The position numbers and the translations under genes were made by a program. A stretch of 64,000 bases of DNA, taken from Hymenolepis diminuta. Its lineage: Eukaryota > Platyhelminthes > Cestoda > Cyclophyllidea > Hymenolepididae. Below, piece by piece: positions 32,823 through 51,200 of the stretch. The notes under the pieces were generated by a model. It did no database searches. It saw nothing but the letters and a program-made list of their open reading frames with translations, and was not told where the DNA came from. The stretch is taken from positions 2,663,789-2,727,788 of the forward strand of contig CAADRB010000015.1 in the NCBI GenBank assembly GCA_900708905.1. Reading direction: 5' to 3'. Within the stretch, counting starts at the first letter, position 1, and every line of letters begins with the position of its first letter.

Positions 32823-34137
32823 TCAGATACTACGGAAGAGCCTATTAATATCCCTCTGAACTGCATCGTGATCTCGAAGGAAACGGGATGGAATATTTTG
32901 TTCAAGAGCTACCTTCCAGTCACCATTCGTCGCTTTAGCTGTGGCAAGGATTGAGTGAATGGCCACTAGGGTAAGTGTTTTACTACCAGAGCGCCAATTG
33001 ACGTAACGTTCTAGAGGCAAGCGCATACACTCCCAACCTGCGAATTTAAAATAAATATTATACTTACTTAACATCAGTAACAGTATATTATCGAAATGGG
33101 AGTAACTTACCAGCACGCTTAGCCCTGGCATGTGTAATGGGTCTACGAACAGACTTGTCAACTATTCCACCCACAACGTAGACAGCATCATGATCATATT
33201 CTCCGATTTCGAAGGCTCGCGGGGCATTTGGACTCAGATAAACAAGTCTCCGGTCTTTGATAACTTCACTAAAATGTTCCGACCTCACAGTAAAAGGACA
33301 TTCTTCCAGACCGCTACATCTGCTAGACTGAAATAATTAAATTAGTATTTTCATTAAGATAAGAAGAAATTTAAGAGTCAGTAGAAATAACTTACCGAAT
33401 TTTCAGTACCAAAAGCCTCTTCAAAGAACTTGTACTGATTCGTACCATGGACTAGACTTGTGAACATGAAGTGAAAGGGAAACGGACGCTGTGCTCGATT
33501 ATGCGAAAATGCCATGGCAAGTTGGCGAGCGAGATTCTTCTGATCAATAATACGCATTTCCTCTTCATGAGAGCAATCAAAAATTAGGGTTTGAGCAGAA
33601 TCTTCAGCTGTTCTCAGTTCAGCAATTACCCAATCATCATGGTGTGCTCGAATGGGTCCACCTCTAATCATTCGAAGTATTTGATTTTTCTGAATGGGTT
33701 CACTAGAAGACTATAAATAATCAGATAATAAGACAAATTATTACCTCTTCAATGATTCTTGCAGACTGTTTTGCTTTCTTTGCCTCCTTCTTTTTTGAAA
33801 CCTTATATCGGAATGAGTAGTACCTATTTCTAGCACTGAGGGAAGGACAACATAAAAGCTCAAGATATTCCAATGGTGTCAAATCCAATGGAACCTCCTT
33901 CCCACGAGCAATTAGCATGCTATGCTCAGCCTTGATATACAGAAGACGGTGTGCATCGTCGGAAGTCAAGTTTGATAAAATTTCCTCGGCCGGTTTAGTC
34001 CGATCAAGGAGGTAGGGTGCGATATCAATTTTCGATGAAAACAACTTTATTCTGGTTGTGAAAAAGTTTCTTTTAGTGACTGACAGTGTTAACAGAGGAC
34101 CAGATCTTCTAAAAGCACATGTGAAGGCCTGCATCAT
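32823..34137 (-). CDS. TRMT10C: Mitochondrial ribonuclease P subunit 1 / tRNA m1R9 methyltransferase (TRMT10C, MRPP1)
   Basis: Four minus-strand exons, 34137-33745, 33710-33396, 33327-33111 and 33037-32823, give 1,140 bases and 379 residues; all phases close. The first about 35 residues are basic and rich in S, T, F and R, as in a mitochondrial presequence. Trm10-family SPOUT motifs follow in order: TLIFDCSHEEEM near 172-183, NLARQL...NRA...PFPFHFMF, LVYLSPNAPRAF near 264-275, YDHDAVYVVGGIVDKSV with the expected Asp at 293, HARAKRAG, and C-terminally MRLPLERYV...LTLVAIHSIL...GDWKVAL. Human MRPP1 is 403 residues, so the length fits. By family knowledge the protein methylates purine 9 of mitochondrial tRNAs and forms RNase P with SDR5C1 and PRORP. 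The ATG at 34137 was chosen as the first in-frame Met before the presequence. Confidence 0.9.
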
Positions 34138-35139
34138 GATGCAGTACAAACGTAACCTTGGTTAGAACGAATCAAAATCGCTAATTTTGGAACGTTTGTT
34201 GGCATATTTATAGGAAATATGCAATTTAATATAAACATGACCATTATTCTTAAATGCGTGACCAAATCCTGTAGTATTTTGGTTATAAAAATGACAGACA
34301 TATAAATTCATAGTCTACGAAATGACGAAACTGTTATTTGTAGTCATAATAATTCATGAATTTATTTCATTCGGAATAACCACGGCAATTTAGGCATTCT
34401 AAGCATTTGTTTTAGTTGAATTATATGGGATTTTCTTGATTGCAATGATATATTTATGTTAATTAGTGATGAATCATTAGCATACAATTAATCGTCGTTT
34501 CCTCACCAAGCTTTTGATAGATGTGAAACGATCACAAATGTATAATCAGTAATCTCACCTAAAGTCAACTCTTAATTGTTCATTCTTGCAAAAATTACCT
34601 GGTATTTCATAATAAAAGCACCCTTAGTTAATGTTCCAGTACAAATGCCAATGCCAATTAAATTAAATATAATGTATCTCACATAGCTGGCTGATTTGTG
34701 TCTAGGTAAAATAAATAGCACTTTTCACAATTTTGTGCGAAATAAGACTTAGAAAAGGTTAGTTTCATTAAACTGATAGTTATTTATGATTAAATGCGTT
34801 AGAACTCACGTCAGTAATTCCAGTAATGGAAGCACTTTCCACCTTGATACATCGTTGCTACTTGTATGCTACCATATTTGTCAGAAAGTATCGTTATATT
34901 CTAAATATGAATTAATGTATGCTAAAAGGCTAAATTTAAATAAAATATTAAAGGAAGAAAATTAAATGGTACATTTGGCTGTATGAAGTTTGCGCTAGCT
35001 GAATTTATGAAGAAATTTTTAATTATCTTTGAGTTTCTGCGCACGTGGTTAGCACTTACTTATTCGGTAAGATTCACTAATAATGTTATCGTTTTCTTCA
35101 GCAAATATATAAATTTCCGTTTTAACTTAACTTTTAGCT
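34138..35139. promoter_or_regulatory. Intergenic region between divergent genes
   Basis: About 1 kb of AT-rich sequence separates the TRMT10C start (minus) from the small helical-protein gene (plus). It probably holds both promoters. I see no clear TATA box or CpG cluster. A strong pyrimidine-AG acceptor ends just two bases before the ATG at 35140, which suggests that a 5' exon or a trans-spliced leader joins there. Confidence 0.3.
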
Positions 35140-36871: not shown

Positions 36872-39800
36872 TCATCGAAGAACGTAGAGTTCCATTTTCT
36901 TGCATCCCTGAAATCACAGAAAACAAAACCTTTTGATAAATTTGAAGGTGAAGAGAAGTTCAAAAATTTTGAGGGTGAGTATAGATAAATGCAAATATAT
37001 GCAAATGCAAATTCAGATATACTCTGAAGTTACCTATTACATATCAACACCTTTCAAGCTTAATCCCTTCAACTTTTAAGAAATTTTAACAATAAAAAAT
37101 CGGTCTCAAAATCTGTTTATTATTTAACCGAGAAAAGCGGATGAAGGCACACAAATACCCAATATTCATAAACTTAGTTCAAACATCTTGCAGGAGAAAA
37201 CCCTTGGTTATATGCGTGCATTATTTTAGTAAGTTTATTTTATTAATAAGATACTATACTTACCCATAAATCAACGCAGTAGGTATTTACGAGAGTGTAA
37301 TCTTTGCAATCATTAAGAATACTCTTCATGTCCGATGTGACTTCGGAAGAAACTAGAACTTCCATGGGTTTAGCGAAGCGTTTCAATTCTAGAATTTCCT
37401 CAAGGGCCTTGCCATAAACGTATTGCCTGAAATTAATCAAATTCAGGGGAATGAATCTCTGTTTGATGGTAGCAATTTGACCTGGTACTTGACAAATAGG
37501 TAAATTCATCTCCACACTTTTTAGAGGGCTTCTTTTCCAAAAATAACCGATGTATTTCGATTCTCTTAGAATCGCATATAAAGTTAACCAACTTTATCTG
37601 TCTATCGAGATTGAAGTCAAGTAAAGATAATTTAGGTCGTTCAGTTTGGTAGCGGGCGTGACACTGCTTAACCTTAGATATATCCCCACCTCTGTTTAAC
37701 TCAGTGGCCGCAATGCAATAGAATAAATATGGAGAAGGCTAAGGTAGCTACAGGACGCTGTGACTGGTTATTAAAGTTCTTAATATGATTGATTGTTAAA
37801 GAGCAAAACCTCTAGATTGATGATAGCTTTCATCACTCATCTTGCCTATACGGATTGTCAACAAGAGCAGAATGCGACAGCAAATCTCTTTTCATTGAGT
37901 CACAGAGACCACTTGCAGGGTGCGCATTGTACAGTTAAGTCATGCTTGTGGCGGTCTTGGCAAACTTCTTTTTATTATGAGCATAAAAGCATAAAGTATT
38001 TGATATAGTAAAAAAGGGTACACAGGTAATTTCGATCACCATAGATAGTTTATATGACTTAATGATTACCATGGAAAATAAACTCCAAGTGGTCCCGACA
38101 TAGCCATCGATCGATGCACGACAGCACAGAATTTGGGATTAGAGAGTGGATCAAATTTGTTAATAGCATTGAATTCGCATTCAACTTGGCTTACGACCCG
38201 AATAAGGCGCAGGATCAGTTCTCTGTCCTCTTCGGATCCTGGTTCAGACCCTTCTCCACAGTCAATTGCAGCAAAACAAACTCCGTCGTTTTCATAACCT
38301 CCTACAAAAGATATGGTATTATTATATGGTTAGCTTCTTCTAAAATATTTGGATTCAAGAAATATCTTATAATGAAAGTAATATATTATAATCTTGATAT
38401 ATGTTCATGAAATTAATATTATTCAAAACAAGCCGATGACGCTGTCGGTTAAAAAACTTTTCAACTTTAAAATTACCAGGAGCGGCTAGACATCGCAGCT
38501 TTTGATCGTTGGCATGTTTCTGGGATATCTGTTTCAGGCATTGGATCTCATAGAGAACCTGAAATGGAAGCAACAAAATTCAGTTTATTAAATAGTTGAT
38601 AAAGTGGTCGCAGATATGATTTCGAAACACATCAGCCAATTGGAATAGCCATTCACATCAGTTATTATTGGGTCAAAGTACAATGTAAATAATCAGTCAT
38701 TTTATCAAATTTCATGACTTTAAATTTACCATACAACTTTCAAACCCAAACCTTTTCCAACACTCATCCTTGAAATGGGGTGGGAATAACATCACGGATC
38801 TTCCCTGCACATTCTGCTATCCCTTTTACTAGCCAAACTTGACCAGCACGGTTAGCTACTTCGATCACTAAGTACACACAAACAAACATTCATCACATGA
38901 TCTCCGTTTTAGTAGACAAGTTCATTAAGCCACTGACGCATATATAAAGGGTTCATATTGCCATCGAGTCCATAACGTAGAACATGGAGATAATTCAGTG
39001 ACAGAATTTAGACTTAAGAACAAGTCATTACAAGTTCCCAGTATTGGCCAAATCTCATGAATTAGCGCTCTCGTAAGCTTAAGGTCATTACCCCAATTTA
39101 TTGCTCAATTATTAATACATCTCCCAGATTTTATATTTATTATCCACAATTAAACAAAAGTCCACAATATTTTATTGTGGAAAAACATCTGAACAATGGG
39201 AACAGTAAAATAATCAATGAGGATGTAATAAAATGGGAACAGAGTATTTAGTTAGTGTTAAGAATGTGTATCCAAAAAATGTCAATCATTCATTTATTGC
39301 GTATCTAATCCCATATGAGCATATTTATTTATAATAGCAAATTGGTCGTTTGAGCTAGTCTTATTTCTTCTTCTGAGATCTGAGTAGTGCAGATTTATTA
39401 AGGGAGAACTAGGGTATTGTTAAAAGTAGTCGGCAGGGATGACATTCCAAAAGCTCTTAAACGCAAAATACTTTCGCTTTTTGATAGCATTCTTTTCATT
39501 TTAGCTATGAGAGGGACCTTAGCCAATCAACGACCTCCCGTTTTCTTCATTTTATCAAATCGTTTTCCCTCCTCTTGTGAAAAATTCCATATTCTTCTTC
39601 TTTACTCTCCCTTACCTAAGAAGTCGGCGGGAGATTTCAACAGATAATTCGTGTTATCAATTGACTCTAGTATTTCTTCTAATTCTGCTCAACCACTTTG
39701 TGTTCAAAGTTTGGTTGGGATAATATCTTATTTCAGTAAATAAAACTAGACTCAAAAACCGGTCTTTAAATATATACAAATGGTCGCTCGTAATGGATCT

Positions 39801-40216
39801 AATATCTCTCTCTTTCTATCCTATATCCACCACTCACAGTCTAATCACTTGAACTCCACACCCTGCCTCATTCAGCCTAGTTACGTCGTGTTTCTCAATT
39901 TCTTTCAAATATTCAATGATTGTAGTTCAATTTATAAGAAGAACTGCATTTTGGCTAGAACTTAAATGGGTGAATATTTCAAATGTGCAATTTACTTACC
40001 GAATTTTCATTACCATCGGTAGCAGACTGGAGAAAAGAAGTGTCCAATGTGACAACAGCCAAAAGGGTATTCTGGGGTGTAATCACACCACCATTAATTA
40101 CTTTCATACTATAAGTCGGTGAAAATAACTGATCAAGTTTACTGCAGAGTTCGGACTTAACCAAAATGATGCCTCGCTCACGAAGAACCGCAGTTGAGTA
40201 TAGGTCATTCAGTCTC
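36872..40216 (-). other. Divergent class III cyclase domain (exons 6-10)
   Basis: Exons 40216-40000, 38558-38477, 37689-37593, 37516-37264 and 36907-36872 align along the whole class III cyclase domain. The dimerisation helix precedes AVVTLDTSF (D913), in place of IYFSDIVGF. NDQKLRCLAAPG (D945) stands for GDAYMVVSGLP, and QCHAR for the conserved HA helix start. FRQYVYGKALEE (1016-1027) replaces RYCLFGDTVN, and GCKKMELYVL at the end matches the GKGKMxTYWL terminus. Lost relative to active guanylate cyclases: the guanine-selecting Glu (K941) and Cys (Y1019), and the transition-state Asn (E1026) and Arg (E1030). The order and the closing phases argue for a real, constrained domain rather than random ORFs. 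Confidence 0.65.
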
Positions 40217-43200
40217 CTTAAAAAAGATAATTAGATTAAGTTCTCACAAATAGAGTTCTCTGAGTGGAGTGAGATATTGGCATAACTTACGCTATGGCTG
40301 CTCGTAGCATATGGTGAGCTACAGACCGACCTTTCGGTACTAAGCTGGCCATTGTTTTGAGAACATCTCGAAAGCTTGGCCTCTTTAGCTCAGAGTGATC
40401 GATGCAGGATTCTGCAATATCACGAATCTGAAATGATAAAATGGGTTTTGATTTCCTTTGTATCGCTGAACTATTCACTTAGATATCGTATTTCAAGTTC
40501 GTGACATCATAAAGAAGCAAAAGGTAACTTTATTAGGGTACTTGTTTGCTTACGCAGGAGGGAACAACCTAAATTTCATTCTGAGCATGGCAAATTATAA
40601 AATCCTTTGCAGTTACATGGTTATTTTGAGAATAAAGGAAACTAATTGGCATTCTTCCTATTCACTAAAATTTCTCTTGTAATACGGTATTTCCCATCAA
40701 GCAATCGTGATACAAATTGGAAATATTCATCAATACAAGGTTTGAAAAAGGAAACAAGGACTTTAACAACAGTAGGTTAGATAATCGAATAGCGTTATTT
40801 TCCAAATCCCTGAGAGAATCTCAATGCATTAATTCCAATGCATAATGCATTTCAGATTTCGGCTGAATTTGACCTAACAGGGCACAAATTTAAACTTATT
40901 CACTTACTGGTATGTTGGATACCAGTATCGTAGCGTTTCAACACTCCCTTCTCCACCCGCACCCCATCTTCTCTCTAAACTGCATAAAACCGTTACGTCT
41001 ATTAGACGCCTGAGTGGATAGAGCTATACTCTGACAGGAATTAACAGCAGTATGCCCACTGTTAACTATTCCATCGATCGATTATCGGCTTATCTCAATC
41101 TTCTACCTTCTGTATACTGAGTTACATTCTGTTTTGACCTTGGTTCATTCTTATTCCTTTCATTTAGCTACCGATCTTTTCCCGTTTATTTATCTTCTGC
41201 ATATTGGGCTTCTCCCTTTAGGCTAATCGAAACGAAAGGCTGTTTACCTTAGAAGGCATATTGATGGATATGGAAAGCTGGTACACTTTATTACAAATGG
41301 CCTCTGCTAGTTGATACTCATGTTCAAATGCCGTCAGCGCAGCGTGAAAAGGTACTTCAAGGTTCCAGATCTCTGTGAGGATCACTCCAAAACTGTAGAC
41401 ATCACACACCATTGATTTATACTCAATTCCATACGTCTCTTCAACTCCTATTTCCGTGTTATCAGGAGTTCTACTCTTTCGACCGTCTGTATGATCTTTC
41501 TTCGAAAAAATATGTTCCATCATCCTTATCTGATCAGCATGGTGATCTGTAGAAAGAGTAGTACACCCATGAGTGGCTATAAAGTTCTTCAACTGAGCTG
41601 GTGACTTCCATACCAATCGAAGATATTCTGGATGCCAGCAGACTTTCAAATGACGTTGAGAAGTATTCTTAAGGATACATTTACATCCTATACCCTCCGT
41701 TTGAATAAGTTCTTTAACATGCTGCCATCGAGATATCTTGATCACCCATCGACTATCTAGAAGACATGTCAAACTTGATAGATTTCCATGAATAATATTT
41801 CGACTATGTAGATAAGTCATTCCTGATGCGATATCCGATGCAAGAGTCAGTTTCATCGGTTGAGAGATCTCATATTGTCCACTATGGAGTAACTCAAAGA
41901 GGCTTCCACGAATACAAGGTTCAACAATCATATAGTAAATCCATGGAAGGACAAAGTCAGATTCAGAATATCCCTGGGTCTTTAAGCCTCCACCACACGG
42001 AGTTTTTCGCAACTTTTTCAACTGATTTGCAAGTCGATTGCGTTTGTGTCTACAATTTTCTGCTGAACACTTCGCCATACCATAGAAACGAACTACATTT
42101 TCATGATCAACTTCAGTGTACTCTTGAAGTGTAACCATTCTCTTCTCTGAAAATCCCATGGTTGATGGAATATTCGTTGGTTTGAGAAGAACATCCACAT
42201 TCTTGAATACTCGATTAACAGGCGCTGTCGAAAGAATTGCATCAGCATAAACCCAGGCATTAGTAGCACCCTTCTTAATGTTCTTAGAAATAGCATGTGG
42301 ATTTCCACCATTACGTTCTTTATTCGTTCCAAGGGCATATTCAAGAAATGCCGTATTCTTAATCTTGTAGATATCGGGCGAGTTCTCTAAAGTTGTTGAT
42401 CTATCTGGAGAATCCATTTGTCTGATGTCAATAAGATATTCAGAAAATTTATGATTATGAGAACGGAAATAACGAAATAGGATTATGAAAACGACAAGGA
42501 GAATAACGATTGTTGCACAAGAAGTGAAAATAATATCTCTGTATTCTTTATCAGCATCGTCATCATCATCCCATTCCTCAGTTTCAAAATGCATCTCCTC
42601 AGAGTATAGCTGCACAGCTGATACTACTAAATCATTCTTGTTTAAGCAGGTCATTTCACTTAGATTTGAGCTGGGGAGGATGCCATTTATCTGACGGAGA
42701 CCAAACAAAGCTAGAATCTCTTTTGCACAAGGTGATCCCTTTAACCATTCGAGAAATCGATAAAGCTCAACTTGTAGCCTGCAAGGTGAACTGAAACGTT
42801 GCAGAGGATCTTTGCGTCGAAGGGATATATTATACGGTTCGACGTCCAGATCTTTCTTAATAACTGCATATAGATTAAAGCTGAAGGGATATTGATTAGA
42901 ATTTCCATCCTCAAAACTATAATCTGCCGGGTTCATAACATTTCCGTTGCTTAATTGAAATGAAATGGTTGGAAATGGTGGAATAGTAGCTAGAAAGTAG
43001 GCCATAGAATAGGGTATTGAGCTTAGAAGGTTGAATTCCCCAGAAGAAGAAAGGGCTCTATAGAGTGTCATATCGTCGGTTGCATTAAAATCTCGTAGAG
43101 AGGTTATTGATTCGTGTTTCCGTCTCCAGACACTTGAGTAATTGCTAAGCACCTTTGAAAGAGCGAAATTCGATCGACAATGGTCATCTCTGACAATGAG

Positions 43201-45211
43201 ACTTATTGGTTGTTGAACTATTGGAAAATCTGCAAGAAAGACGTAATAATAACATGGTAGGAATCTAATAGTATTTAAAAGATATCAGAATACATACCCG
43301 GATTCTTGTGACGAATTCGAACATCATCCCAGGAGTTGATTTTGCCAGCAAAAATGGCTTTAATATCAGAGGAGCTCAGAACAAGTTGGAAATATTTTGA
43401 GACTTCTGGAAGATTGTAGCAGAACACCAAACGTCTGCAAATAAATTAGGCAAAATTTATTTAAATTAAAAATTCCTTAAAATACAAATTGCAAAATATT
43501 TACCATTTCTTGGAGACTTAGATTAATATGTTTTTACTCCATGTGCATAACTTAATCAAATCAATAGGGAGGAACTTAATTGCTTTGAAGCTTATTGGAA
43601 GAGATCAGTGCTAAAAATTAATTTTTGGTAAACATGCGGTCGCTTTCTCCTCTCATCTGATTCGTTCGAAATTTGTCCTAGTTAAAAAATGATAAATGTA
43701 ATCAAGAATATTTGATTCTAAATTTAACCACTTAACGAAGTTGCTTCTGAATGGATGGTCCTGAATTCAGTAGAAGCCTTAACTATCACGGGTCTAGAAA
43801 TAGGTAATTCACCTTTCAGTTCCATATTTTTCAAGCTCAAAGTTTTTTGATTTCTATTTACTTAAAATGATAAACTCACTCCTACTTCATTATGCATGCG
43901 CAACATAAGAAGAAAAATCCATACTTTTTGAAAAGGCTTCAAAATAAGCCAACTTGTAGGAATTCAGACCAGAATGGAGTAACGGTTTATACGATATTTT
44001 TTTGTAGATTCCTTCTCCCTTCTCATTTATAGGTCTTAAATTAGCGGTGAAAGCAAGCTGAAATGCAGCTCCATCTCCTTAGAGTTGTAGATTTGTCGCG
44101 TGATGGGCAATTCCTACAAGTGGTCTTCAGTAGGGGGGTGAGGACGTTCGCCGTTTTTTCTGGGAAAAAACTATTATCGACCTTCGACATAACCAATGTA
44201 TAGACGAATTGTACTTTCTTATTTAGTAACCATAATAATAACTATTTAATAATAATGTTTCAATATTGATTTAAGTATCCACACTTTCCCCTTATCTCTC
44301 CAATCGGGTCCGAGTTAAATACAGCCTTGCGGTATCTAGAAGGAATAAAAATCATACCCCCAGAAAATAGATTTACAGGCATTACAACAGTGTTGAAGTC
44401 TTACTTTACAAAAGAAAATTAATGCAGTTCTAACTTTGTATCGTCATAAATATTTTCAGAAAACTATCACAATGCTTATTTATTAATAAGATCAGTATTT
44501 CTCAAGAAAGTCATATGGAAATCTTTCCTATCTTGTCTTTATCAGTTATTTGTCTTGGCATTTTCAGGTGAAGTAGAATAAAATATTTTAAATTATGCTT
44601 TTATTAGTCAGTGAGTAAGGTATCAACGTTCCTGAATTCAAATAATTTGTCTGTAGTTATAATTACTAGGCTATAAGTTCTAGCAAAAAAATATTTTTTG
44701 TTATGTATTGAAAGGTTACTATAGTAGGAACTGACGCTGAGGCAAACGGGACGGCCATGTATTCAGAGGAAAAATTCCCAATTTGAGCAAACGTATCAGC
44801 CAAGAGAGCTGAAAATTGTTCCAACATCTCTGGAGGAGAAGAGCCACCAGGATATGACGTCTCAGTAATCGTTGGGACTATCTAAAATGGAAACAATACT
44901 ACTTATATGTGGGTGATCTCAAATTAATAATAGATGTATTAATATTGATAAAGAATAGCATGAAGTCTATTTAAATTTAAATGTATTTTGGTAGTTCAAA
45001 CTGAATCTATGAAGAGACTTGAATTTAAAAATTCACAAAAAGTGCTCACATTCACATAGTGACTGCGGTTTTGAACATACGATTCGATCAATTTTCTCCA
45101 TAGAGGAAGGGCATTCCTAGATACAGCGGCGGCGAATTTGAGATCGGATAATTTTTGGTTTGCCTTTATTTGAGTTAAAATAATTAATTCCACCATCAGT
45201 AACGATATCAT
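36872..45211 (-). CDS. Receptor guanylate cyclase-like protein with PstS-type extracellular domain (10 exons)
   Basis: Model exons on the minus strand: 45211-45050, 44881-44736, 43434-43298, 43229-41248, 40427-40291, 40216-40000, 38558-38477, 37689-37593, 37516-37264 and 36907-36872. Together they make 3,249 bases, 1,082 residues plus stop, with all phases closing. Residues 1-17 look like a signal peptide. Residues about 20-335 resemble PstS phosphate-binding proteins (YNLPEV at 109-114, AIFAGKINSWDD at 129-140). A membrane span lies near 380-403. A kinase-homology domain covers about 440-850, with HGN at 629-631 where kinases have HRD and SRW at 648-650 where they have DFG. A diverged cyclase domain covers about 880-1082. 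Family knowledge: single-span receptor cyclases make cGMP on ligand binding. Here, catalysis is doubtful because key residues are replaced. The borders of exons 7 and 8 and the GTTGGT donor at 37592 are the weakest parts. The start was chosen at 45211 because it gives a signal peptide directly before the PstS-like strand. Confidence 0.8.
37850..38410 (+). mobile_element. Gypsy-like integrase relic, antisense inside a receptor-cyclase intron
   Basis: The plus strand within the intron 37690-38476 carries two pieces of retrotransposon integrase in the same frame. Near 37900-38005 there is a segment like the zinc-binding HHCC domain entry (HRDHLQGAH, then QTSFYYE). Near 38140-38270 there is the end of the catalytic core, WIKFVNSIEFAFNL followed by FSVLFGSWFRP, which matches the W..LP..EFAYN...FELVFG..PR pattern of Gypsy integrases. 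The DDE core between them is deleted and several stops intervene, so it is dead. The plus reading direction is antisense to the host gene. Confidence 0.5.
43298..45211 (-). other. PstS-like (type II periplasmic-binding) ectodomain, N-terminal half, exons 1-3
   Basis: Exons 45211-45050, 44881-44736 and 43434-43298 encode the signal peptide and the first lobe of a solute-binding fold. The order of elements follows PstS: a first strand with AAAVSRNALPLW (residues 28-39), a helix, a linker rich in P, G and S, then MAVPFASARLVFCYNLPEV and the segment AIFAGKINSWDD, which matches the PstS hallmark IFLGKITNWND region. The PstS segment that reads DFGASDAPL is not recognisable. The second lobe lies in exon 4 and ends near residue 333 with a helix FLEWLKGSPCAKEILALFG. 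Similarity was judged by eye from family knowledge, not by a search. Confidence 0.7.
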
Positions 45212-48252: not shown

Positions 48253-51200
48253 GCAATAAATAAGGACACTCTTATTGGTGTTCTTTCCGTGATTGGTGGA
48301 ATATTAATCCATTTTACCTTTGGACATTTTTATACAATTGGTATTTTTATCAAACCATAATTAATGAATTTAGGCAATCTTGCTCCGTATATGATGTCCT
48401 ACTTGAAGATTAGAGTTGATCCTAACGTTGAAATGGGCTCAGCTGTATGGATTTCTGCTATTGCTTTGTCAATGCAAGGCGTGTCTATGCCTATTGGTGG
48501 TGCTTTGTTGCCATTTATGGGTTACCGTGCTGTAGTCATACTGGGTTGTATAATAAACAGCGGCAGCATATTGCTAACTTACTTCACTATTCAAAAAGGC
48601 TTTATCTACGTTGTTTTAACTTACGCCGTCGCCCTCGGTTTTGGTTTTGGATTTTCATACGCTATCATTTTTTCCGTTGCTGGATCGGTAACTATTAGTT
48701 TCTCTTAAATCTTATGAATTTATTTACATAGTGGTTCCCAAAACGACGAGCCCTCATTACTGGTATGATTGTTGGTGGTTTCGGTCTTGGAGCTCTTGTA
48801 TTTACACCCATTCAGACTGTATATATTAACCCAAATAATCTGATGGTGAACAATGAGACCAAGTAAATTTCTTTACTACAAAATTATTCATCAATGTTTG
48901 TTGATGACTTTGACTTAATTTATGTTTTCTCTTATTTTAAAGGTTGTTTGATGACCCAGAATTGCTCGATAAAGTTCCAATGGCTTTTCTAATTCTTGGT
49001 GGCTCACTTGCAGCCCTTCAGTTCATCGGTATTTTTCTCCTTATTGAAAAAACAGAGCCAAAGAAGACGGTAGGAATTTATTCAAATTTCAATTAAAATG
49101 TATTTTTTTCAGGACTTGTTCTTCCATCTGATACATTTTCCTCACGTTTTTAGACAAAATCTGAAACTGAAAATCAGGAAGACAAAAACGTATTTCGATA
49201 TCCATAATTTTGGCAACTTAAACTCAACAGTTTGCTATATTTCGTCTATTTTTTCTTTATAAACCAGGAAATGCGATCTTTGGTTCATGGTGATGCTGAA
49301 AAGAATGCTGCTAAAACTACGGCCCAAGGCGAAGTGTACGTTGTGTTGATATTAAATTAATTTATATGAATAAATATATTATTAAAACGATATATTTATT
49401 GTGTTTTCTATTAATCCAGAGAGGACGAGGAAATGATGGCTATAATTGGAACCCGTCGTTCAATCTCGATTGCCCACTCTAGTATAGGTCCAATTTCTCC
49501 TCCTAAACGCGGAAAAGTGTCGATTGTTGTCCCGGAGTAAGTATCACCAAAAAAACCTTCGGTTATTTTAATTATAAAATCAACCGGCATTGACTAATCC
49601 TATTAAAATTGATGTCGATTAAGTCAAGTTGAAATTTCATCAGACTGAATTGTTTGAGCTCAATCTAATTGAATTACCTTTTAGTTAAACATTTAATGGA
49701 TATAAATTAATGCTTTTTCGGGAGGTTTTTCAATATAAATGAGAATGCTGAAAATTATGTTAACTGGAGTTAATCTTGTATCTCTTTAATTGCTCTTTAA
49801 AAAATTATTCTCAGTATTTATTAATTCTACACATTAAAATTAGTCCACGATGTTCTCAAAATTTCAATTTCACTGAATGAAAGGAGGCAGAGATCATTAG
49901 TAAAAATTAATATTGATGATTAGTGAGTTGGTTGAAGAGATGTTTGAGGATTTATGCTTTTATTCTGCGAAGACTCAAGGATGGACCTTGATTTTCGGAA
50001 TACGATAATCAATAGGTCAATACATTGAAAGTGTACTCTATCAACACTGCTATTCCCAATCGTGAGATCAATTTTTCTGCCATATTTTTCTTTTTTAATA
50101 AGTTTTGAATAATTGTAACAAAACAGTGCTTAATTTCTGTATTTTTAGAATCTCTAAGGCCATATCTACCTAGTGAGTTTTAATCAATACGGAATAGACA
50201 TATTTGGATAATCATCTAACAGCATGCTATTATGAATTTATTCGCTAACAATAATTGTGGAAATTCTTAATTAAACTCACGTTATGACATTCTTTGTCAT
50301 TCTGATCTCTTATATTAGTCAACAAAATAAGGATTCTTATTGACATATGGACAATACTAATCCAAAAATCAAATAATTTTAATAAAATTGAATAATAAGA
50401 AACAGTAAAAATTTGTGATTTTCTTAAGTCATTGATTTGATGAAATTTGAGATTCAAGTTCTTTGCGATGGCATGGTTGAGAATCTAACTTGCGATAAAA
50501 TATTAACCCCAAAGAATCGAAAGTTCTAATTTCAGAATTCTCTTTTTCATCTTTCACAATTTCTAACAAAAAAGTGCTATCGCATGTTTTGTTCGCTAGG
50601 AAAAGATTCTTTTTCTTCTGTTTTCTGGCTAAATCCAAATATGTAAAGTCTAGCATAGGTTTTAAGTCGAAACCGTGCCTATTTTAGAAGGCATGCGATA
50701 TTAACCGCCTGGATTGTTTTAATTTTTAATGAAAATACTGACAAATAAAGGATAAATGTAAAATATTTTTCAATACATCTGTTCTACTTCATATGTATGT
50801 TTTAATAATAGTTTTAAACTGCTTTACAGTTAGGGAAAAAATTTTCGTTCGCTCAATTATATTTAATCTTTGACCAGATAGAACAATTCAAATACGGCAT
50901 ATTTTGCTAACCAAATGAAGGATATTCTGCTGTCAGGTTATTTGTATCATTTGAATTATACATTTGGTATTTTCTATTATCAGTTATTAAGAAAGTACGT
51001 CGGCATTTTCCTGTTAATTTTTGTGATTATTATTTTTTTCCTTCCCTATCCCAACTTCACTCGATTATAGATTTGGGGAATCATTTTAACAAAATGAATT
51101 CGATTTTGTAACCCGAAGGGAAAATGGTGTACCTCCATTTCTTAGGTGAAAATATTGTACTTCCTCCTAGCCATATAGTCCAAAAGAAGTTTATTTTACT

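Follow-up and report, generated by a model that had tools for sequence, protein, structure and literature searches.

The receptor guanylate cyclases of animals are generally regarded as sensing peptides or odorants through a head of the ANF kind. In membrane receptor cyclases of the ANF type, such as the proteins P0009 and P0010, an ectodomain, one membrane span, a kinase-homology domain and a class III cyclase fold follow each other in this order. We analyzed a gene with the same order of parts from the tapeworm Hymenolepis diminuta, which lies on the minus strand of a 64,000-nucleotide stretch of contig CAADRB010000015.1 (assembly GCA_900708905.1, positions 2,663,789 to 2,727,788), called the window below. 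Unlike ANF-type receptor cyclases, the window gene has no ANF ectodomain, its cyclase catalytic residues are replaced, and it is unmatched by the Pfam family PF00211 (Guanylate_cyc). We propose that it encodes a relative of the receptor guanylate cyclases with a PstS-like (type II) head, in which both inner enzyme domains have degenerated and which would work as a single-span, ligand-gated, non-catalytic receptor. We give this reading, drawn from sequence comparisons, about an even chance.

Other described proteins share single features with the window gene. NPR-C is a clearance receptor without kinase-homology and cyclase domains; like NPR-C, the window gene product belongs to the kin of natriuretic receptors and is predicted to be without cyclase activity, whereas it retains both inner domains in degenerate form. 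The Venus kinase receptors, which occur in flatworms and other invertebrates, connect a two-lobed ANF-like module via a single span to an active tyrosine kinase. A two-lobed ectodomain on a single-span receptor of the kinase type is common to both, but the PstS-like head and the degenerate kinase (HGNLSS in the catalytic loop, RWQ at the DFG position) place the window gene outside the Venus kinase receptors. DING proteins and the 'human phosphate binding protein' (2q9t, 2v3q), the latter presumably bacterial in origin, differ in being soluble phosphate binders. Unlike PstS and other PBP_like_2 proteins of bacteria and phages, the tapeworm domain sits in a predicted animal membrane receptor and has lost the residues equivalent to S139, G140 and T141. 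PBP_like_2 has been described together with 7tm_3 in one fungal protein, SPPG_06488 (PMC3251606), and Plasmodiophora proteins with the same two domains have been interpreted as transporters (PMC4815078). These proteins and P0011 resemble the window gene product in being eukaryotic membrane proteins with PBP_like_2 on the outside; however, they have seven spans where the window gene has one span and the inner domains of a cyclase receptor, and SPPG_06488 and the Plasmodiophora proteins are not from animals. P0011 has 1195 residues and scored 148.7 bits with 7tm_3 and 46.1 bits with PBP_like_2, and a second similar stretch was seen in it by eye.

A first-pass annotation of the window had called the domain combination one not known as characterised. 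This stands insofar as a receptor cyclase with a PstS-like head was not among the matches listed in the open-licence literature, which leaves most subscription journals and bioRxiv outside, and it has to be qualified by the published combination of PBP_like_2 with 7tm_3. One fluke kinome counted four receptor cyclases, and the words 'ectodomain' and 'periplasmic' are absent from its main text (PMC12837073). What we consider new is the head, together with the degenerate state of the inner enzymes, in a relative of the receptor cyclases; we do not rate the window gene as a new kind of system.

The resemblance of the ectodomain to PstS is beyond chance at the sequence level. The first-pass annotation had inferred a PstS-kind type II binding fold in place of the ANF (type I) domain and had suggested profile searches and structure prediction as checks; profile, PDB and structure comparisons support it. 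PF12849 (PBP_like_2) matched with 33.2 bits (E 5.9e-8, cut-off 27), and PF01094 gave no match. A profile search of the PDB with the ectodomain had a best E of 6.1e-9. It listed 20 chains with E values up to 1; 17 were PstS or phosphate-binding proteins, the weakest of them at 0.021, and the other three had E values from 0.33 to 0.82. A profile made from bacterial and phage-contig PstS alone matched exon 3 of the window gene (E 5e-6) and exon 3 of a paralogue described below (4e-7). As a control, the profile comparison of the ectodomain with ANF-receptor gave a probability of 0.1 and an E of 0.68. A good structure model, built with 15 PstS rows in the alignment, predicts a two-lobed type II binding fold.

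Only one stretch of the protein rises above the hydropathy threshold, at residues about 378-407; the putative signal peptide, which was judged from sequence only, stays under the same threshold. Six N-glycosylation sequons fall within the 376-residue ectodomain and two within the 692 residues behind residue 405. This distribution and the single span fit an extracellular head with one membrane crossing, and the protein is predicted to cross the membrane once. With one span instead of seven and no match to PF00003 (7tm_3), it falls outside the class C G-protein-coupled receptors. Behind the span, PF07714 and PF00069 matched the kinase-homology domain over cut-off, and this domain was matched in all six orthologous proteins scanned. 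It contains DSRWVIKI, a stretch of the receptor-cyclase type, and beyond the family itself the next matches of the family profile were the ANF-type receptor cyclases P0009 and P0010 (1.6e-21 and 3.6e-19). The comparisons support a PstS-like head and a kinase-homology domain in one gene. The kinase motifs are degenerate: RWQ stands at the position of DFG in P0010, and the catalytic loop, HGNLSS, is without Asp. With the roles that we assume for these two motifs, the kinase-homology domain is therefore predicted to be unable to phosphorylate.

The C-terminal domain does not support the earlier label of a receptor guanylate cyclase in the sense of an enzyme. It had no Pfam match, no significant PDB match and none of the three cyclase motifs tested, and the window gene is absent among the 22 exon matches of PF00211 in the genome; in the Spirometra orthologue the PF00211 score is weak (14.1 bits, cut-off 21.9). 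Its cyclase ancestry emerged from weak profile comparisons and from the paralogue, which does pass PF00211. When the C-termini of six tapeworm proteins were compared as a profile with two genuine cyclases, the probability was 64 (E 6.6e-5, 79 columns), and a comparison with an alignment containing P0010 and the paralogue gave 91 (E 1.3e-6, 247 columns). In the joint alignment, Asn and Arg of NTASRM, which we take to be the transition-state residues, are replaced in all six tapeworm rows and in the paralogue. The presumed guanine-selecting residues are affected as well: Glu of KVETIGD is replaced in the paralogue and in each of the five tapeworm rows with letters there, and Cys of YCLFGD in six of six tapeworm rows, while the paralogue retains it.

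We mapped the ligand site onto E. coli PstS numbering, using what we take to be its ligand positions and counting tapeworm rows with letters at each position. R135 and D137 are kept in 6/6 rows and S38 in 2/6. D56, S139 and G140 are kept in none of six rows, T141 in none of seven, and T10 and F11 in none of four; another Asp, a few columns past D56 where the alignment is uncertain, is conserved in six tapeworm rows. The proposal that the receptor senses an anion is weakened by this pattern: the PstS site retains Arg135 and Asp137, but no tapeworm row with letters there has Ser139, Gly140 or Thr141. The PstS binding pocket appears to have been rebuilt, which would make a small ligand other than phosphate more likely, and phosphate bound in the canonical PstS mode is an unlikely ligand.

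The first-pass annotation had also suggested a survey of other flatworm genomes, and the same architecture proved to be conserved across tapeworms. Relatives were found in H. microstoma, Rodentolepis nana, Anoplocephala perfoliata, Taenia asiatica, Echinococcus multilocularis and Spirometra erinaceieuropaei, which belongs to another tapeworm order, and as one further fragment. No relative from a fluke, a planarian or another animal was among the protein-search matches, a search that needs shared five-residue words and is too insensitive to demonstrate absence; the protein searches scored 7991, 1866 and 7993 candidates, and one of them failed to return even the orthologues from Taenia, Echinococcus and Spirometra. 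In all five orthologues compared, the kinase-homology and C-terminal domains resemble those of the window gene more closely than the ectodomains resemble each other (for H. microstoma, similarities of 79%, 81% and 69%, respectively), and an inner half that is better conserved than the head is unlikely to be a mere remnant. The source name of the E. multilocularis orthologue, P0007, is 'natriuretic peptide receptor 1', yet its ectodomain aligns with PstS and not with ANF. The Anoplocephala protein, P0005, continues into a part that resembles tRNA methyltransferases (PF01746, in one of six members). Frames similar to this tail lie at 32823-34161 (-) of the window, about 2.7 kb downstream of the receptor on the same strand, and three of them scanned singly had no Pfam match; their position suggests a conserved gene order and a fused gene model in Anoplocephala.

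Within the genome (an assembly of 170.6 Mb in 203 contigs), the window gene and one paralogue, at C158:623155-627882, were the only family members clearly above the kinase background. The paralogue has the same domain order as the window gene and the same intron phases into exons 3-9 (2,1,0,2,0,1,2), and it is 21% identical to P0002, the H. microstoma protein. Its exon-joined product has 959 residues without its N-terminus, and an assembly gap was found upstream of its first exon. In a Pfam scan it exceeded three cut-offs at the same time: Pkinase with 52.9 bits (cut-off 31.7), PF00211 with 41.6-44.9 bits (cut-off 21.9) and PF12849 with 27.2 bits (cut-off 27). In its cyclase domain the metal Asp residues are missing, and so are the Asn and Arg taken to be the transition-state residues.

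Some of what these two genes have lost is kept at other receptor-cyclase loci in the genome. At C128 and C194, receptor-type loci with kinase-homology exons nearby, the metal motif, VETIGDAY and an intact NT(A/S)SRM are all present, whereas the window gene and the paralogue have none of the three. Four loci with kinase-homology exons (C1:460702, C2:1960674, C2:1971989 and C3:5243164) keep the metal and VETIGDAY motifs, and Lys replaces the transition-state Arg in each of them (NQAQKM twice, IQALKM, HRALKM); the transition-state Asn is kept at C1 and one C2 locus and replaced at the other C2 locus and at C3. Judged by these motifs, the four are possibly impaired or half-site cyclases. Upstream of two receptor-cyclase loci, 8.1 kb at C2 and 7.9 kb at C3, a search for a PstS-like head gave nothing below E 0.7, and the same stretches had no ANF match. 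A genome search with PF07701 had no match, but its control was silent too, so that it says nothing. At C194, Guanylate_cyc exons (131718-133365) lie on the same strand as ANF_receptor exons (165081-177586) 30-45 kb upstream, and together these are possibly a conventional ANF-type receptor cyclase.

The window gene has ten exons running from 45211 to 36872 (Table 1). Each of its nine introns has GT-AG borders, and joining the exons gives an open frame of 1097 residues. The interval first given for the gene, 41248..45211, corresponds to exons 1-4 and was incomplete, as six further exons reach 36872; the strings quoted with it were all found on the minus strand in the stated order. For exon 2 we took the phase 2 donor that cuts between GC and GTCAGT, because the join then has the spacing seen in PstS (VPFASA-RLVFCYNLPEV). 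A public H. diminuta protein, P0001, found after this choice, has the same exon 2-4 junctions as our model. The encoded protein matches it at 99% identity across 95% of the encoded length. P0001 agrees over exons 2-10, minus 13 residues at the exon 4-5 join. Instead of exon 1 it has a different N-terminus and hence no putative signal peptide; the N-terminus from exon 1 is present in P0002, in P0006 (Taenia asiatica) and in P0007. Upstream of the receptor, on the opposite strand (48361-49540 (+)), the window holds exons of a transporter-like protein with a weak MFS_1 score of 15.3 bits, below the cut-off.

Table 1. Exons of the receptor-like gene, in window coordinates
Exon	Encoded part	Position	Strand	Support
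1	Start Met, putative signal peptide, first PstS-like segment DLKFAAAVSRNALPLWRKLIESYVQN	45050..45211	-	P0002, P0006, P0007
2	PstS-like lobe 1, C-terminal end VPFASA	44736..44881	-	Identical junction in P0001
3	Strongest PstS likeness of all exons (YNLPEV, AIFAGKINSWDD)	43298..43434	-	PstS-only profile, E 5e-6
4	Remaining ectodomain (PISLIVRDD ... FLEWLKGSPCAKEILALFG), the one hydrophobic span and the larger part of the kinase-homology domain	41248..43229	-	PF07714, 64.8 bits (cut-off 23.1)
5	End of the kinase-homology domain	40291..40427	-	Conserved
6	Linker, then the cyclase-like domain with its first strand (AVVTLDTSFLQ)	40000..40216	-	
7	Cyclase-like domain, next part	38477..38558	-	
8	Cyclase-like domain (GGYENDGVCF ... 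VHRSMAMSGPLGVYF)	38070..38301	-	
9	Cyclase-like domain (VYGKALEEILELKRFAKPMEVLVSSEVT)	37264..37426	-	
10	Final codons and stop	36872..36907	-	

The gene structure, the PstS relationship, the kinase-homology domain, the replacement of catalytic residues, the conservation in tapeworms and the matching paralogue are evident from the sequences themselves. For a non-catalytic, ligand-gated receptor, we envisage that a small solute would close the two lobes of the ectodomain and that this closure would be relayed across the membrane to both inner domains by way of the span. The output would depend on a partner, because neither inner domain is expected to catalyse. Class III cyclases function as dimers, and a complete receptor cyclase is for this reason the first candidate: it would dimerise with the cyclase-like domain, and its output of cyclic GMP (cGMP) would be raised or damped. 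The loci at C128 and C194, with all three catalytic motifs tested, could supply such partners.

Some observations weigh against this reading. If the paralogue is set aside, the C-terminal domain of the window gene is only weakly tied to cyclases, with no cyclase match and the probability of 64 given above. Two Asp near the metal positions (LD..FLQ and ENDGVC) are invariant in 5/5 cyclophyllidean rows and may be a metal-binding pair, which would leave a residual half-site; the first of them was paired with the metal Asp by hhalign and not by MAFFT. A model of the ectodomain from five tapeworm rows only was poor (predicted local distance difference test score, pLDDT, of 34), and PF12849 stays under its cut-off in P0002, P0007 and P0008.

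Among the alternatives, a decoy or clearance receptor, which binds its ligand and internalises or buffers it while the inner domains only aid folding, dimerisation or trafficking, survives best and is nevertheless unlikely. Two enzyme domains that look inactive under an ectodomain whose fold is kept would suit it, but the closer conservation of the inner domains in all five orthologues points to a role in intracellular signalling or binding. Next comes a pseudokinase scaffold that signals outside cGMP by recruiting other kinases or adaptors. In the window gene, in Spirometra and in the paralogue, the kinase-homology domain has long insertions that are absent from P0009 and P0010, and these speak for such a scaffold; the cyclase-like C-terminus, retained in tapeworms as far apart as Hymenolepis and Spirometra as well as in the paralogue, would be hard to explain without cGMP complexes, and we consider this account rather unlikely. 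A bolder version of the cyclase reading, which we think doubtful and place after the scaffold, holds that the gene is the first PstS-type sensor on a receptor-cyclase chassis in animals. The protein would be an obligate half-site subunit in which the metal Asp pair is kept and the transition-state Asn and Arg are lost, and it would produce cGMP only together with a complete receptor cyclase; a nutrient-like solute from the host gut would gate cGMP by way of this heterodimer, and the four Lys-bearing loci would share the division of labour.

It is improbable that the protein is a conventional receptor guanylate cyclase, active as an enzyme and unusual in its ectodomain. Such an enzyme would account for the domain order of receptor cyclases, the source name of the E. 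multilocularis orthologue and the possible metal Asp pair, but it conflicts with the missing PF00211 match and with the replacement of the Asn and Arg of NTASRM, the Glu of KVETIGD and the Cys of YCLFGD in the tapeworm rows. It is scarcely credible that chance or a faulty gene model produced the likeness of the ectodomain to PstS: the PF12849 score is modest and under cut-off in the three proteins named, and a whole-genome, exon-by-exon search with PF12849 had no match although exon 3 matches the PstS profile locally, but we reject this origin on the PstS and ANF-control profile comparisons, the structure work and the match of the PstS-only profile to exon 3.

Overall, we favor a non-catalytic receptor of receptor-cyclase descent with a PstS-like head. 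The gene is tapeworm-wide and labelled as a natriuretic peptide receptor in Echinococcus, and it is therefore hidden by existing annotation. Its lost catalytic residues make it a test case for pseudo-receptors that steer cGMP signalling. With a solute-binding head of the bacterial type, a gutless parasite could directly read nutrients or ions at its surface.

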